Below, piece after piece: positions 1,959 to 64,000 of a stretch of 64,000 bases of DNA (positions within the stretch are counted from its first letter, which is position 1; the number at the start of each line of letters is the position of its first letter). The translations under genes and the position numbers were made by a program. Source of the DNA: Bacillota bacterium (lineage in GTDB: Bacteria; Bacillota; Negativicutes; Sporomusales; CTSoil-080); assembly GCA_017889635.1 (NCBI GenBank), contig JAGGAC010000005.1:1-64000 (forward strand). Reading direction: 5' to 3'. A model generated the notes under the pieces. The model was not told where the DNA came from. It did not search any database and was given only the letters and a program-made list of their open reading frames with translations.

Positions 1959-3077
1959 TTATTGCAGTGCGGTGCGGTCGAGTTGACCAATAATTTCGGT
2001 TATTCTTACCCCGAAGTTCTCGTCAATTACTACAACCTCGCCTTTGGCGATAAGTTTGCCATTTGCCAGTATATCCACAGGTTCACCGGCAAGTTTGTCA
2101 AGTTCAACAACAGAACCAGGGCTAAGTTCTAGAATATCCCGAATGAGTTTTTTCGTCCGCCCCAGTTCAACAGTCACCTGAAGTGGTACATCCATAATCA
2201 AACTTATATTTGCATCAATAGCCGGCATATTTGCCGGAGTAAACGAAGTGAATTGTGCAGGTTGTACAGTAACATTGCCCTGATGTTGAACATAACCAGA
2301 TGGCTGCGCCACCATTGGTTGAGGCATAGATTGCGTAGCCGGAGGAGTCGGAGGAAGAGTCGTGATTGGAGGTTGAGTCGCCTGAGGCGCTGGTTTAACT
2401 TGAGGAGCAGCCGTTTCCACAGACTTCAAGAGATTCCCTACTAATTCTTGGGCTACAGGAATAGAAACAATCTGCATGATTTCGCTGTCAATAAGGTCTT
2501 CCACCTCCATTCGGAATGACACTTCAACAACAGTTTCGTCCTTTACAGGCATACCTTCCAAATCCATATCAGTACCAAAATCCACAATATTACAGTTCGG
2601 TGGGGCTATATCAATTTTTTTCTTAAAAATAGTGGACATTGAGGTCGCCACAGCCCCCATCATCTGGTTCATGGCCTCAGAAACTGCGCTCATGTAAAGT
2701 TCATTTAACTCGGTAGGTGGATTGGATCCATCGCCGCCCATCATCAAATCAGCAATAATAAGCGCATCCTCCTGGCGCATAGCCAAAAGGTTAGAGCCAG
2801 TAATTCCAACAGTATAACCAACTTCAATTATGAGATAAGGCATTGGATACTTGTGTTTAAATTCATTTAAATTAGTGACGTTCACCTTGGGAGTGGTAAT
2901 TGACACACGTCGTGAGAGCAAAATTGACAAGGTAGTTGCCGCACTACCCATTGAAATGTTGCCAATCTCACCCATAGCATCCTTTTCAATATCACTAAGG
3001 GCATCGCCCTGCACTGCTGCGGGTTCTCCGCGCAGCAACGCGTCTATTTCTTCTTGAGATAAAAAACCGCTATTCAT
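1959..3077 (-). CDS. fliY: Flagellar motor switch phosphatase FliY
   Basis: About 372 residues from the ATG preceded by GGAGAGG; an upstream in-frame TTG overlapping fliM further is less likely. The N-terminus MNSGFLSQEEIDALLRG resembles the CheY-P-binding peptide of FliM. A CheC-like phosphatase domain follows with two E-x-x-N type motifs (GEIGNISMG and SEAMNQMMG). Next comes a Pro/Gln-rich linker (about 225-290) and a C-terminal FliN/SpoA domain (VPLQVTVELGRTKKLIRDIL). It forms part of the C-ring and dephosphorylates CheY-P. The gene overlaps the end of fliM by a few bases, implying translational coupling. Confidence 0.95.
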   Translation of the reverse strand: MNSGFLSQEEIDALLRGEPAAVQGDALSDIEKDAMGEIGNISMGSAATTLSILLSRRVSITTPKVNVTNLNEFKHKYPMPYLIIEVGYTVGITGSNLLAMRQEDALIIADLMMGGDGSNPPTELNELYMSAVSEAMNQMMGAVATSMSTIFKKKIDIAPPNCNIVDFGTDMDLEGMPVKDETVVEVSFRMEVEDLIDSEIMQIVSIPVAQELVGNLLKSVETAAPQVKPAPQATQPPITTLPPTPPATQSMPQPMVAQPSGYVQHQGNVTVQPAQFTSFTPANMPAIDANISLIMDVPLQVTVELGRTKKLIRDILELSPGSVVELDKLAGEPVDILANGKLIAKGEVVVIDENFGVRITEIIGQLDRTALQ

Positions 3078-4077
3078 CGCCATCCTCTCCTTTCGCAATA
3101 ATTTGACTTATCTGCACCGCTAGTTTTTTTCCGGCTACGCCTGGTTTGCATTTGAACTTCGCATTTGTTCCAATAATAACACTAAGATCATCATTAGTTC
3201 TTGTTTCAAGTTGCATTACGTCTCCTACAGCCAAATTCAAAAGTTCATGAACATTTATATTGATGCTGCCAAGTTCAACAATCATCGGAATCAAAGATCT
3301 TTCAAGCTTGCGCTGTAAAGCGCTGATAGTATCATCCGACGTCTGTTTTGACACAGACGAAGCTACCCAAAAGGTTGTCGACAATTTAGACATAATCGGT
3401 TCCAACACCAAATAAGGAATGCAAATATTTATCAGCCCCTCGGCTTGGCCAATTTTGGTCTGAAGAGTGACAATAACAACCATGTCATTGGGTGGCACTA
3501 TCTGGGTAAATTGCGGATTAGTCTCTATTACCTCCATTTTGGGTTCAATGAGGATAAACTGTTTCCACGCTTCTTGAAAACTTTCGAGAGCCTTTGTTAT
3601 AACCTTCCTAATAATGGCTTCTTCAATATCGGTTAATGATCGTGTTTTAGTCGGAGCACTCCCCATTCCACCAAACAGTCGGTCAATTATTGCAAATACA
3701 ATATTAGGATTAACTTCAAGAAGTACTGTTCCTTTTAATGGCCGCATTTGAAAAATACTGATAACACTTGGGTTAGGCAACGACCGAATAAATTCTTCAT
3801 AAGTCAACTGATCAACCGAAACCACATTAATATGGACAAAGGTTCTTAAAAGCGCAGCCAAATAAGTATTAAGTAATCGAGCAAAATTTTCATGTAACAT
3901 ATATAAAGTGCGAATTTGGTCCTTGGAAAATTTATCAGGACGTTTAAAGTCATATAGCTTGATTTTTTTCTGATTTTGCTCAACTTTCATATCCTCGGCT
4001 GATACAATGCCAGTCGATAAGGCGGATAAAAGTTCATCTATTTCTGATTGGGATAAAACATCAGGGCCCGCCACCAA
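3070..4077 (-). CDS. fliM: Flagellar motor switch protein FliM
   Basis: FliM (335 residues) is the middle C-ring protein that receives CheY-P and contacts FliG. Residues 8-18 (LSQSEIDELLSA) form the CheY-P-binding peptide. KLYDFKRPDKFSKDQIRTL marks the start of the central CheC-like domain, and the C-terminal SpoA domain includes VGDVMQLETRTNDDLSV. The start is most likely TTG at 4075-4077 (or the next codon, GTG), six bases after a run of seven G. It lies between fliL and fliY. Confidence 0.96.
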   Translation of the reverse strand: MVAGPDVLSQSEIDELLSALSTGIVSAEDMKVEQNQKKIKLYDFKRPDKFSKDQIRTLYMLHENFARLLNTYLAALLRTFVHINVVSVDQLTYEEFIRSLPNPSVISIFQMRPLKGTVLLEVNPNIVFAIIDRLFGGMGSAPTKTRSLTDIEEAIIRKVITKALESFQEAWKQFILIEPKMEVIETNPQFTQIVPPNDMVVIVTLQTKIGQAEGLINICIPYLVLEPIMSKLSTTFWVASSVSKQTSDDTISALQRKLERSLIPMIVELGSININVHELLNLAVGDVMQLETRTNDDLSVIIGTNAKFKCKPGVAGKKLAVQISQIIAKGEDGDE

Positions 4078-4106
4078 AAAGTACCCCCCCTTCGCACTGG
4101 CCTATC

Positions 4107-4580
4107 CTACTGCAAAACAAAGCTTGTGATATAAACATCCATAACCACATCTTTTCCCAAGGCCTTATTTACTTCATTTTTTATAAGTTCTTTTAACTGC
4201 TCTTGTTTTGACGGTTCAAAGTCTTCTAGCTTTTGTGACCTGAGAACATAAACGACTGAATCCTGTATCTTAATTTCCTCAGGAGATTGCGTTTTTCCTC
4301 CCGATTCTTGTGTTTTCGTGTCAGTTTTTAGCTCCAGCGCCAAGCCAATTTTTAGATACCGTCCACTATTAAAGCCCCCAATATTAATAATAAGTCCGTC
4401 TTTAGCGTCACCAACCTTCATAAGTACACCGGGTTCGCGGACTGCCGCCTTGTCATGGCTTTTTTCACTCGAAAATTTAGTTACGACATAATAAGAAATC
4501 CCACCCGCAAAAATACAACATATAACTAGTATCATAACAATCATCATCATGGGAAATCCTTTTTTTTCTTTTTCAGCCAT
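4107..4580 (-). CDS. fliL: Flagellar basal body-associated protein FliL
   Basis: A 157-residue single-pass membrane protein. It has a short basic cytoplasmic N-terminus, a membrane helix at about residues 9-31 (MMMIVMILVICCIFAGGIS), and a periplasm-side FliL domain that ends ELIKNEVNKALG...VMDVYITSFVLQ. FliL surrounds the stator units at the basal body and modulates torque. A GGAGG site precedes the ATG. Here it directly follows motA, whereas motB often separates the two in related operons. Confidence 0.94.
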   Translation of the reverse strand: MAEKEKKGFPMMMIVMILVICCIFAGGISYYVVTKFSSEKSHDKAAVREPGVLMKVGDAKDGLIINIGGFNSGRYLKIGLALELKTDTKTQESGGKTQSPEEIKIQDSVVYVLRSQKLEDFEPSKQEQLKELIKNEVNKALGKDVVMDVYITSFVLQ

Positions 4581-58801: not shown

Positions 58802-61132
58802 TTATTGAGCATAATAATTCATTAAACAGCCAGCCAAAATAATATCCCGGTCATCTTTAGATAAATTCTCAAGCTTTAATTCAATAGACGTCTTTCCTGT
58901 GTCATTAATGATAACTGCTGGTATCCTATCCAAATCATCAATGACCGCCTGACGAATTCCAGGAATAAAAACATAGTCGTTTACCTTAAGCTTAGCCTGA
59001 ACGCCCTCCTCAATAGTAAACGGCAGCATACCCCAGTTGATAAGATTGCTGCGATAACGTTTAGTAGCATATTCAATAGCAATATTAGCCTGCCCTCCCA
59101 GCACCTTCTGAGAAGAAGCAGCTTGTTCCCTAGCTGAACCGTCGCCAGGTTTGACAGCGAAGATTACACTGCCCAAACCGGTATCTTCAAAAAGCTGCAA
59201 GGGTTCCTGACCAGCTTCACCAATCAACTTGTAAATTTCTTGTAAGTCGTCAGACAACTTGCCTCCCAACGCCGCTTTTCGCCGTTCAAACTCAAGCTGT
59301 TGAATAGCTTTAGCCTTTCCGACATAAGCGGGATCCTTCCTGGACAACGCAAATTCCGCAAGCTTAAGTGGATTGGAACGATATGACGAAGTCTCGCCTG
59401 ACGGCATCAGCTCATCAGTAGTAGTAACCGGATCATGAATCACCGTTACCAGCTTAAGCAGTAAATTCTTCGGTAAAGCTATCATCTTCGGCCAATCGGC
59501 AATATTAGGTCCGAATTTCAGTTCCGCCTCTGGCTTAGCTAGGCCGAACCCTTGGTATACCCGTTTATTATATATATCAGTGTTAAAAGAGTAATCAGAC
59601 CTTACTGGCGTCACTTCAACCTCGGCTGCCGAAGTTAATATCCCGCCATTCAAAGCTGTCGCCGCTATTGACCGAGCATCCATAAGCGCTACCGATGCCA
59701 ACTGACCGCTAGCAGGCTTCGAACCTTCACGATTAGGGAAATTTCTTGTAACATGGCGAACACTCAAGCCATTATTGGCCGGAGTATCACCGGCACCAAA
59801 ACACGGTCCGCAGAAAGCACTCTTAATATTAGCGCCAGCCAGCACTAATTTTTCTATTGCCTTATTGGCAATCAGCCCCATGTATACCGGCTGACTGGCC
59901 GGATAAACATTCAGAGAAAACTCCCCATTGCCGACCGACTTATTATTTAATATCTCGGCCACTGCCGCAATATTTTCAAAGGTACCACCAGCGCAACCAG
60001 CAACTACCCCTTGATCAATCTTCAACTTCCCATTGACAACTTTATCAGCCAAGCTAAGCTTCAAATTAGGGCTCTCCAATTGTTTTTGCCCTTCGACTTC
60101 AACCGCATGGAGAATTTCTGCTGCATTTTTGTTAATCTCAGCAATAGTCCAAACATTGCTTGGATGAAATGGCAGAGCAATCATCGGTTCAACCTTGCTT
60201 AAATCAACCTTCACCAAGCCATCATAATAACTTACTTCACCCGGTTCCAGTTTTTTATATTCATCCGTTCGGCCATGCACCCGGTAAAAATCGGCTACTT
60301 TTTCATCAGTAACCCAAATTGACGACAAACAAGTAGTCTCCGTAGTCATCACGTCAATCCCGTTGCGATAATCAACTGAAAGCTTAGCAATCCCAGGACC
60401 AACAAACTCCAGCACTTTATTTTTTACAAACGAATTATTAAACACTGCCTTGATTATCGCCAGCGCCACATCCTGAGGCCCGACGCTAACCGCCGGTTCA
60501 CCTTCCAAGTAAACAGCTATCACTTCCGGCTTCGCCAAATCATAAGTCTTCTCCAAAATCTGTTTTACAAGTTCCGGTCCACCTTCACCAACCCCCATAG
60601 TCCCAAGAGCGCCATAACGGGTATGGCTGTCCGACCCAAGGATCATTTTGCCGCAGCCGGTCATCATCTCCCTCACATACTGGTGAATAACCGCCTGGTG
60701 CGCAGGAACATATATTCCCCCGTATTTGTGCGCCGCCGATAATCCAAACACATGATCATCTTCATTAATAGTGCCGCCAACCGCGCATAAGCTGTTGTGG
60801 CAATTAGTCAAAACATAGGGAACAGGAAATTTTTTTAGCCCGCTTGCTCGCGCGGTCTGGACTATCCCTACATAAGTAATATCGTGCGATGCCAACGCGT
60901 CAAACCGCAGTTTTAAATTATTCTCATCGCCCGACTTGTTATGGCAGCTTAAAATCTGATGGGCGATAGTTCCTTTACGTGCTTTATCCCTGCAGATAGC
61001 GTCGCTAGTCAAAGGAGCAATCCCCGCCTTATTCAAGCAACTATTAATTTCGTCAGCACCTAGTTTATCGGCATCCGCCATAAGTAAACTACCCTTTAAT
61101 AAAAAAACTCCCTTGTTCAATAGTTCAACCAT
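58802..61132 (-). CDS. Aconitase-family hydratase (YbhJ-like)
   Basis: A 776-residue member of the aconitase superfamily, with AAAGGAG before the ATG. Three Cys expected to hold a 4Fe-4S cluster are at about 380 ([13 protein letters not shown]), 441 and 444 ([12 protein letters not shown]). [23 protein letters not shown] and the C-terminal swivel block with [13 protein letters not shown] are typical. It resembles E. coli YbhJ more than AcnA/AcnB. The substrate is unproven: citrate/isocitrate or another hydroxyacid. It precedes no other TCA gene here. Confidence 0.85.
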
Positions 61133-61343
61133 ATAATTACTCCTTTAACTTAATCTACCCTTAACTTATCTCCTGATTTATATTATTTTAACAAATTATT
61201 TTGTTTATAGGTAGTACTGCTTTCGAATTAAGTTTAAAAACATGAAAAATCGTAAAAAACTTTGTAAAAAAAAACGCCAGGCAAATGCTAAAGCATTCAC
61301 CCGGCAGGCATGGTATCAAAATCACTTATTCAATTTACCATAA

Positions 61344-64000
61344 TTATCCTCTAGGACTATTTTTCACAAACCAATGCTCAACTGTATCCGCAAAATCTGC
61401 GGCCGCACAAGGTAAGCCAGACTCACAAGTTTCTTCCGCTGCTGCACTGCTCTTCTCTCCGACTACTCGAAGAATTTCAGCGATAATTTCAGCATTGGTT
61501 TTGCCAATACGGCTTGGTATAGCAGCATTAAGCTTCTGCGTACGCTTTTCGCTATTAGTATATGTGCCATCAGTCTCAGCAAACGTAGCCAGCGGCAACA
61601 CAACATCAGCCAATTTTGCAGTTTCAGTAAGAAATACATCCGCTACCATCGTAAATTCGCTTTCTTTTATGCTTAGCGCAGCATTGTTCACGCCGCAGCC
61701 CACTGGATCTTCGCCGAAAATTACGAAAGCGTCTTTAGCCTTACTGCAAGCTGCTTCAAAGCCCAAATCAATTGCACCTTGAGTATTAGCTTTACCGTGC
61801 ATTACCAGAAGCGACTTATCGGCCTTACCAGCAGCAAGAGCTAGGCCTGCAACAGCTTCAGCTTCATGGGCGCTGATATCTCCGCCAATAACGAAGACAG
61901 GTTTTTTAGCTCCGGCCAGCAGTTCTACCAACCGGGCCCTTTGCGCATGCTTTTCATTGTCGCCACATTCACAAGCTTTGGCCTCTTTACCACGGATAGC
62001 ATCAACGCAGCTATTTATAAAGCAGGTGATATTTTCTTGTTTTATAGCCATAACCTCGGTTGCATAACGAGTCATTTTGCTTGGCTGGTCATAAACCAGT
62101 ACAAGTTCAGCTCCCCTTTCGGCGGCTTCTTTGACCATTAATGCAGCCACTGGATTGACTTCTTTAATATCAAAGCCGATACAAGCAATAAAGTCAGCAG
62201 CTTTAAGTTCCTCATAAGTTGCAGTTTTTGCTTTATTACCAAGTGCTTTGGCAACACCAAAGGCGGCGGTCCGTAGACCAAAACTAGCCGGTTTAATATT
62301 AAAGGACTTTTGAGCCAGTTGTTTAACCAAAGACAACTCTTCGTTAGTAAGACGCTGGGATGCGTAAATCCCGGTTTTGCTGGATTTCTTCGTCAGCTTT
62401 TCACCAATCACCTGATAAGCTTCCTCCCAGGAAGCTGATACTAACTTACCGTTTTTGTTTATAAACGGCTGAGTCAACCGATCGGCAGCATTGATAAAGT
62501 CATTGCCAAATCTACCGCGGGTACAAAGATTACCATTATTTACACCTTGTCCTACTTGGGCAGTAGTCCTAACATACTGTCCAGCAGTAATATTTATTTC
62601 TAACGAACAGCCTGTACCACAGTAGTTACAAATAGTTGAAATTGTTTTTTCCACAAATGGACCTGGTTTGGGCAAATGTACCTTTTCAACAAGCGCGCCT
62701 ACCGGACAGCTTGACACGCACTGACCGCAAGACTCACAACGGGATTCTTCGGCAAAAGCCTTACCGAAGGACGGCGCAACAACAGTATTGTAGCCGCGTG
62801 AAATAAACCCAATAGCGCCAGCCCCCTGTAGTTCATGACATATTCTTACACAGCGACCACACATAATGCATTTGTTCTGGTCACGAGTAATAAACGGATG
62901 AGAATCATCTATTGGATGTTTGCTGATAGCTCCAGCTAAACGGTTTTGCTCAGCCTTATAGGTTGTAGCAAACTCCCTGAGCTTACATTCATGCACATCT
63001 TTACAGCCGCAAGACAGGCACCTTTCAGCCTCACGCCGCGCCTGTTCTTCGACAAAGCCGAGTTCAACTTCTTTAAAGTTGTGTTCGCGGGCTTTTTTAT
63101 CAAGCATCGGCATTTTTTCTTTAACAACTTTGGGTAGTTGCTCAAATTCTTCTTTATTCAGTTCCTTCAGTTTACCTTTTACATGGTTATATGCCGAAGC
63201 TAGTTTTTCCAGCTTCTGACCACGTACGAATTGATCAATTGCTAGCGCAGCCTGGCGGCCAGCTGCAATCGCAGCTATAGCGGTCTTGGGTCCGGTAACA
63301 ACATCACCGCCAGCAAAAACACCCTCAATATTAGTTGTCATGAGATCTTGATCAACTTGAATACGATTTCTAACAGCATTAAGCGCAAAATCAGAACTGA
63401 TAAATGAAAGATCCTGATCCTGGCCAATAGCCGCAATAACATAGTCACATTCTTCCACAAATTCTGAACCTGCAACCCGAACTGGACTGCGACGTCCTGA
63501 AGCATCCATTTCGCCAAGTTCCATCCGATACAATGTTAAGGCAACCCGGCCATTAATTTCAGCAACTTTATCTGTTGCGACAAGTTCTACAATATGAACG
63601 CCTTCAAATTCGGCTTCTTCTATTTCCATTTCATGCGCTGGCATTTCGGCTTTAGTACGACGATAAGCCATTTTCACTTCACTCGCACCAAGCCTGATTG
63701 CAGTTCTAGCAGCATCGACAGCAGTATTGCCGCCGCCAACAACAATTACTTTCTTGCCAGTCATATCCGCTGGTTGACCTAACCCAACCGTACCCAAAAA
63801 TTCAACACCGGCGAGAATGTTAGCAATGCCTTCTTCCCCGTCACACCCCAACTTTGTACCTACCTGCGATCCAACACCAAGAAAAATTGCAGCGTAGCCG
63901 TCTTTCTTCAGACTAGCGGTAGTCACGTCTTTACCAAAAGTAGTATTGTAACGAATCTCAACGCCTAGCGCTTTAATAAGATCAATTTCTTTATCCAAGA
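61344..64000 (-). CDS. NfnB/GltD-like and NuoG-like fused oxidoreductase (partial, 5' end off window)
   Basis: At least 884 residues are visible; the N-terminus lies beyond base 64000. The first 260 form an FAD/NAD(P)-binding GltD/NfnB-like module (KKVIVVGGGNTAVDAARTA, near 82-100; GVFAGGDVVTGPKTAIAAIAAGRQAA). Then come CLSCGCKDVHEC (327-338), two ferredoxin-like clusters CIMCGRCVRIC (377-387) and CESCGQCVSSCP (421-432), and a molybdopterin-oxidoreductase Fe-S domain (ICNYCGTGC...LCTRGRFG). A shortened NuoG-like tail ends in NSPRG. It resembles the large subunit of Sporomusa-type transhydrogenases; this is an inference. Confidence 0.85.
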   Translation of the reverse strand, partial: LDKEIDLIKALGVEIRYNTTFGKDVTTASLKKDGYAAIFLGVGSQVGTKLGCDGEEGIANILAGVEFLGTVGLGQPADMTGKKVIVVGGGNTAVDAARTAIRLGASEVKMAYRRTKAEMPAHEMEIEEAEFEGVHIVELVATDKVAEINGRVALTLYRMELGEMDASGRRSPVRVAGSEFVEECDYVIAAIGQDQDLSFISSDFALNAVRNRIQVDQDLMTTNIEGVFAGGDVVTGPKTAIAAIAAGRQAALAIDQFVRGQKLEKLASAYNHVKGKLKELNKEEFEQLPKVVKEKMPMLDKKAREHNFKEVELGFVEEQARREAERCLSCGCKDVHECKLREFATTYKAEQNRLAGAISKHPIDDSHPFITRDQNKCIMCGRCVRICHELQGAGAIGFISRGYNTVVAPSFGKAFAEESRCESCGQCVSSCPVGALVEKVHLPKPGPFVEKTISTICNYCGTGCSLEINITAGQYVRTTAQVGQGVNNGNLCTRGRFGNDFINAADRLTQPFINKNGKLVSASWEEAYQVIGEKLTKKSSKTGIYASQRLTNEELSLVKQLAQKSFNIKPASFGLRTAAFGVAKALGNKAKTATYEELKAADFIACIGFDIKEVNPVAALMVKEAAERGAELVLVYDQPSKMTRYATEVMAIKQENITCFINSCVDAIRGKEAKACECGDNEKHAQRARLVELLAGAKKPVFVIGGDISAHEAEAVAGLALAAGKADKSLLVMHGKANTQGAIDLGFEAACSKAKDAFVIFGEDPVGCGVNNAALSIKESEFTMVADVFLTETAKLADVVLPLATFAETDGTYTNSEKRTQKLNAAIPSRIGKTNAEIIAEILRVVGEKSSAAAEETCESGLPCAAADFADTVEHWFVKNSPRG

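Follow-up and report, generated by a model that had tools for sequence, protein, structure and literature searches.

The window analysed here (the whole stretch of 64,000 nucleotides, bases 1-64000 of contig 14, which runs to 78,634 in a genome of 4.5 Mb) ends inside a gene that almost certainly encodes StnC, the large chain of StnABC (NfnABC, Sporomusa-type Nfn), a predicted electron-bifurcating ferredoxin-dependent transhydrogenase. The open frame at 61344..63998 (- strand) is genuine: its 884 codons within the window are the 3' part of a 1129-codon gene, stnC, which is complete on the contig (64733..61344, -; 1129 aa) and whose 5' part is truncated by the window edge. A preliminary description of this DNA had likened the chain to the large subunit of the Sporomusa-type transhydrogenase, and the end-to-end alignment with Sporomusa ovata StnC agrees with this. 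The fusion of GltD-like and NuoG-like parts that characterises StnABC/NfnABC is present at full length, and the protein is an ordinary though somewhat distant member of the known family of three-subunit enzymes through which anaerobes move electrons among NADPH, NADH and ferredoxin.

Domain layout and family of the StnC chain

All six Pfam matches in StnC exceeded the curated cut-offs and were found in the order Fer2_4 (residues 3-78), Fer4_20 (100-179), Pyr_redox_2 (194-492), Fer4_Nqo3 (613-681), Molybdop_Fe4S4 (695-748) and Molybdopterin (752-1087), bearing out the earlier reading of an NAD(P)-FAD module, several Fe-S clusters and a shortened molybdopterin-type domain in one chain. The part of stnC within the window (aa 246-1129; 61344..64000, -) belongs to an ORF with full-length phmmer matches to 9bov_A and 8oh5_C. 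It begins in the GltD/NfnB-like module (aa 102-570; the GltD/DPD-type Fe-S domain Fer4_20 and the FAD/NAD(P) oxidoreductase domain Pyr_redox_2), which occupies 63024..64000 (-) in the window and whose first part extends to 64430 beyond it; the module has the FAD motif GxGxxG at aa 200 and an NADP-type GxGxxA at aa 333. The CLSCGCKDVHEC cysteine motif follows (aa 572-583; 62985..63020, -), recognised by its conserved cysteines, typical of StnC/NsoC and named in the text available from PMC7483475. Next come two Nqo3-like 4Fe-4S clusters (Fer4_Nqo3, aa 613-681; 62691..62897, -) with 8 conserved cysteines, a Molybdop_Fe4S4 4Fe-4S cluster (aa 695-748; 62490..62651, -) with 4 conserved cysteines and an FdhF-like domain without Mo ligands (PF00384, aa 752-1087; 61473..62480, -). 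The ferredoxin part proposed earlier corresponds to the 4Fe-4S dicluster region, within the window; the [2Fe-2S] domain, at the N-terminus of StnC, is outside it, beyond the edge.

The best PDB matches of StnC by phmmer, both over the full length, were 9bov_A (851.7 bits) and 8oh5_C (815.4 bits). Compared with S. ovata StnC, the query showed 40% identity along the whole chain; by region, identity fell from 49% ([2Fe-2S] domain) through 48% (GltD-like module) and 44% (dicluster region) to 30% (FdhF-like domain). The S. ovata reference was the StnC of a related genome (L058), which aligns to 8oh5_C across all 1172 residues and is identical where printed. The StnC candidates in the available tables of PMC7483475, from which Lutispora is absent, cover 31 to 100% identity and 891 to 1241 residues, and the query therefore falls inside the known range.

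With StnABC of S. ovata (8oh5, 8oh9) the query complex shares the three subunits, all domains, the 26 motif cysteines, K170 and R239, as well as an FdhF-like domain without Mo ligands; it differs in having V at the position of C114 and a shorter C-terminal tail that cannot be aligned. Nfn-ABC of Caldicellulosiruptor saccharolyticus (9bov, 9bp5) is the top match for StnC both in sequence and in Foldseek, with a chain of 1178 residues versus 1129 in the query. The subunit plan is also shared with NfnABC of Thermococcus sibiricus (9n5u) and NsoABC of T. litoralis. In these two the C-terminal domain is described as partial, without the C2 cysteines (PMC10482914), while the query keeps the four Molybdop_Fe4S4 cysteines and the dicluster cysteines. 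Foldseek was run on a predicted model that covers the window part of StnC and, at a low mean pLDDT of 61, gives weak support only; its two leading hits were 9bov_A (E 5.6e-47) and 8oh5_C (E 8.6e-47), yet the overall superposition was poor (TM 0.33-0.35). VIA-align gave formylmethanofuran dehydrogenase, formate dehydrogenase and complex I chains scores similar to those of StnC (Z 18-24), and the model therefore does not separate these families.

Partner genes and gene neighbourhood

The preliminary description had proposed looking past position 64000 for NuoE/NuoF-like genes, and homologues of StnB and StnA are indeed located directly upstream of stnC. The stnB gene (66538..64760, -) encodes a NuoF/HydB-like protein of 592 aa (phmmer to 8oh5_B, 884.6 bits), and stnA (67044..66541, -) a NuoE/HydC-like protein of 167 aa (phmmer to 9bov_C, 191.5 bits). 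StnB matched the solved 8oh5/8oh9 and 9bov/9bp5 complexes over its full length and StnA over residues 16-163.

These partners bear on one other identity for the chain, a glutamate synthase small subunit carrying additional domains, which had been named beforehand as the kind of family whose close match would speak against the Stn reading. Residues ~99-506 do match GltD chains, but the match is limited to these residues and NuoE/NuoF-like partners adjoin the gene; the large subunit GltB was not found among the neighbouring ORFs examined at the locus. We consider a glutamate synthase subunit extremely improbable and rejected it on coverage and gene context.

In StnB the N-terminal cysteines are retained along with the FMN and NADH_4Fe-4S domains and the paired C-terminal cysteine motifs CVGCTACSRVC / CTKCGACKEKC, and StnA retains the 2Fe-2S domain. 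According to the text available from PMC10482914, bifurcation in S. ovata resides in the StnA 2Fe-2S domain, the StnB N-terminal cysteines and the C-terminal 4Fe-4S pair, and everything that the S. ovata model requires of these two subunits is present in the predicted StnA and StnB. Their retention, together with the title of the closest solved homologue (Caldicellulosiruptor), where the complex is called electron bifurcating, argues against an NADPH dehydrogenase of similar architecture that does not bifurcate and passes electrons from NADPH to NAD+, ferredoxin or sulfur, the kind of activity originally suggested for Thermococcus Nso. Such an activity is quite improbable here; in its favour are the absence of C114 from the query and the shared subunit plan of NsoABC, named NADPH-dependent sulfur oxidoreductase (PMC7483475).

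The three genes of the predicted bifurcating complex are contiguous on the same strand, with gaps of 2 bases (stnA/stnB) and 26 bases (stnB/stnC), and look like a single transcription unit. There is a promoter-like site (TTGACA-16-TATGAT; 67175..67148, -) 5' of stnA and a terminator-like hairpin of 14 pairs plus a T run (61275..61306, -) 3' of stnC, each a consensus match only. Terminator-like sites numbered 6 in the region versus 6.1 in shuffles, the stnC hairpin having the longest stem, and the promoter-like and terminator-like totals were no higher than in shuffles. The aconitase-like gene that comes after stnC (58802..61132) is missing at the same place in a sister-genus locus (L035) and is therefore outside the stn unit; its link with stnABC was rejected, as the neighbour gene is not kept in that locus. 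Upstream of stnA, beyond the window (L002:7279-12408), is a cluster that resembles methylthioadenosine/adenosylhomocysteine salvage (a deaminase, a class II aldolase, an adenosylhomocysteinase-like protein, an MtnA-like protein and a phosphorylase). A link with these genes was also rejected; the nearest ones are kept in two sister genomes (L035, L036) and not in the Lutispora loci listed.

The FdhF-like tail

The tail after CTRGRFG, estimated earlier at about 390 residues, is 386 residues long (the motif Cys is residue 737 of 1129). It had been regarded as a shortened molybdopterin-type domain, short for a catalytic Mo/W enzyme, and the alignment and Pfam results are in line with this. The CxxxCH motif of the two formate dehydrogenase alpha subunits from the same genome (CARTCH / CARICH) is deleted in both the query and S. 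ovata StnC. The second pterin-binding domain, PF01568, was detected by Pfam in the one formate dehydrogenase of the genome scanned, and neither in the query nor in the three other StnC scanned. Because the motif is deleted and PF01568 is missing, a working Mo/W site in the StnC tail is, judged from the sequence, very unlikely, and a catalytic Mo/W tail was rejected.

The same two absences make it very unlikely that the chain is a formate-dehydrogenase-linked flavoprotein, the clostridial alternative offered in the preliminary description, in which the tail would be a working Mo/W site. The tail does belong to PF00384 and matches FdhF chains, but the CxxxCH motif is intact in the two formate dehydrogenases of the genome, whose alpha genes lie on contigs other than that of stnC; we give this alternative next to no probability. 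The second of these alpha genes is apparently split into overlapping frames, 1817-2278 and 2113-4464 (L068:1817-4464).

The FdhF-like domain of S. ovata StnC is reported to be catalytically inactive, with clusters C1 and C2 off the electron path, and deleting the domain or exchanging the C1/C2 cysteines blocks correct assembly (PMC10482914). By analogy, the FdhF-like domain of the query most likely has no Mo/W cofactor and serves assembly. A purely electron-carrying role, as suggested earlier, thus fits the chain as a whole but not the shortened tail, which is more likely structural because the S. ovata C1/C2 clusters lie off the path and the domain is needed to assemble the complex.

Cluster ligands, relatives and proposed role

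A match at E <= 1e-150 was present in 77/398 genomes drawn from the phylum, a count that includes shorter proteins, and in 10/60 relatives, where the own genome, shorter proteins and two hydrogenase fusions are included. Only those of the 77 matching phylum genomes with a fetched locus entered the tree and the residue counts, and L059 (complete), three truncated sequences (L042, L043, L048) and four weak or partial ones (L051-L054) were left out; the residue counts therefore favour the best-scoring relatives. The resulting alignment had 49 rows. All 26 StnC motif cysteine columns are Cys in the query and in 47/47 StnC-type rows; the remaining 2/49 rows are hydrogenase fusions without the last four motif cysteines. 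In S. ovata numbering, K170 and R239 are conserved in 49/49 rows, K170 being reportedly strictly conserved in StnC (PMC10482914), and H96, with which the printed stretch begins, is likewise His in 49/49 rows. The 26 cysteines with H96 and K170 make 28, which is the ligand number for six [4Fe-4S] clusters and one [2Fe-2S] cluster, the set that StnC is described as carrying (PMC10482914), and we infer the allotment of single ligands to individual StnC clusters.

C114 of S. ovata has density to cluster C7 and its alanine variant halves activity; the same source, in the text available, calls this residue not strictly conserved and mentions two cases in which V or I takes its place (PMC10482914). 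The query has V at this position, and Cys was found in 20/49 rows. Cys143 was found in 19/49 rows, never together with C114, and 10/49 rows have neither; since the 49 rows are related, this pattern counts few events. Cys143 may be the older state because the stand-alone GltD-like protein of the own genome, which by eye has E at the K170 position, also has the CGRVC form with Cys143.

In the tree of the 49 N-terminal parts, the query groups with two sister-genus genomes and Lutispora (support 100/99; 100/100 with L044 added). This clade stands apart from the S. ovata clade, though the S. ovata-type genomes are of the same order, a pattern that lineage-to-lineage transfer or old paralogy would explain. 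It is possible, but unlikely, that Stn of the Lutispora-type clade differs in function, relying at the FAD-proximal C7 on a different accessory cysteine, Cys143 (the conserved C147 lies four residues further on), or on none. Two Lutispora loci (L038:4181-5974 and L050:4181-5974) have a StnB N-terminal domain of another type (ICRGTGCSSS), different from that of the query and the other Lutispora loci, which suggests that the domain was exchanged there.

Related Fe-S/flavin fusions were observed alongside. In two related genomes, one from the same order and one from the same class, the N-terminal half of a StnC-like chain is joined to an [FeFe]-hydrogenase domain, at L105:5763-8954 (-; the same protein as L062, in which PF02906 and PF02256 were detected) and L106:6038-9211 (+; the same protein as L063). 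The fusion gene is located amid apparent allantoin/ureidoglycolate catabolism genes (names by ORF reading), and no StnA or StnB adjoins it at these two loci. The fusion may be an NADPH-linked H2-evolving enzyme. A literature search for allantoin and FeFe hydrogenase found no paper, and no GltD-hydrogenase fusion was named among the matches listed in the searches able to show one. In the own genome, contig 76 (L064:6415-10789) encodes a 707-aa Fer2/4Fe-4S/GltD-like chain with K at the K170 position, which adjoins a 213-aa NuoF C-terminal-like protein and a 505-aa fumarate-reductase-like flavoprotein. Contig 41 (L069:2806-10871) has NuoE-like (152 aa), NuoF-like (674 aa) and Fer2/4Fe-4S (210 aa) genes adjoining those of a 748-aa molybdopterin-type enzyme and a sigma-54-type regulator (names by ORF reading).

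NfnAB shares its GltD-like FAD/NADPH module with the query, which has K where NfnB reportedly has Glu. No NfnA was found in the genome, and NfnAB was rejected there, the sole PF10418 match being PyrK-like and adjoining a PyrD-like gene; the stretch examined beside the stand-alone GltD-like gene (contig 68) contained no NfnA-like gene either. Stn and Nfn are described as almost mutually exclusive in acetogens (PMC7483475). The genome also encodes one RnfC above the cut-off and, on contig 36, a HydB-like protein with 60% identity to StnB.

The mechanistic model of S. ovata StnABC (PMC10482914, in the text available) would apply to this organism by analogy. NADPH would hand a hydride to the non-bifurcating FAD in the GltD-like module of StnC, electrons would run through C7-C6-C5-C4-C3 to the FMN in StnB, and the StnA-StnB module would split them between NAD+ and, via StnA movement, ferredoxin; the overall reaction would be reversible. 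We infer that the complex in this organism mainly makes NADPH from NADH and reduced ferredoxin, and that its main task is to keep NADPH in balance with NADH and ferredoxin to supply biosynthesis. Because the acetyl-CoA synthase domain PF03598 was not found in the genome (the search controls included no acetogen), its role may not be the acetogenic one known from S. ovata.

These results add a Stn complex to a Sporomusa-order anaerobe in whose genome neither an acetyl-CoA synthase domain nor NfnA was found; same-order relatives carry StnC of a different clade. If the Lutispora-type clade were functionally distinct, the K170/C114 state-dependent switching proposed for S. ovata would not be general, and redox tuning or the preferred direction would differ among clades. 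The natural variation at positions 114 and 143 offers a simple mutational test of the proposed C7 switching.
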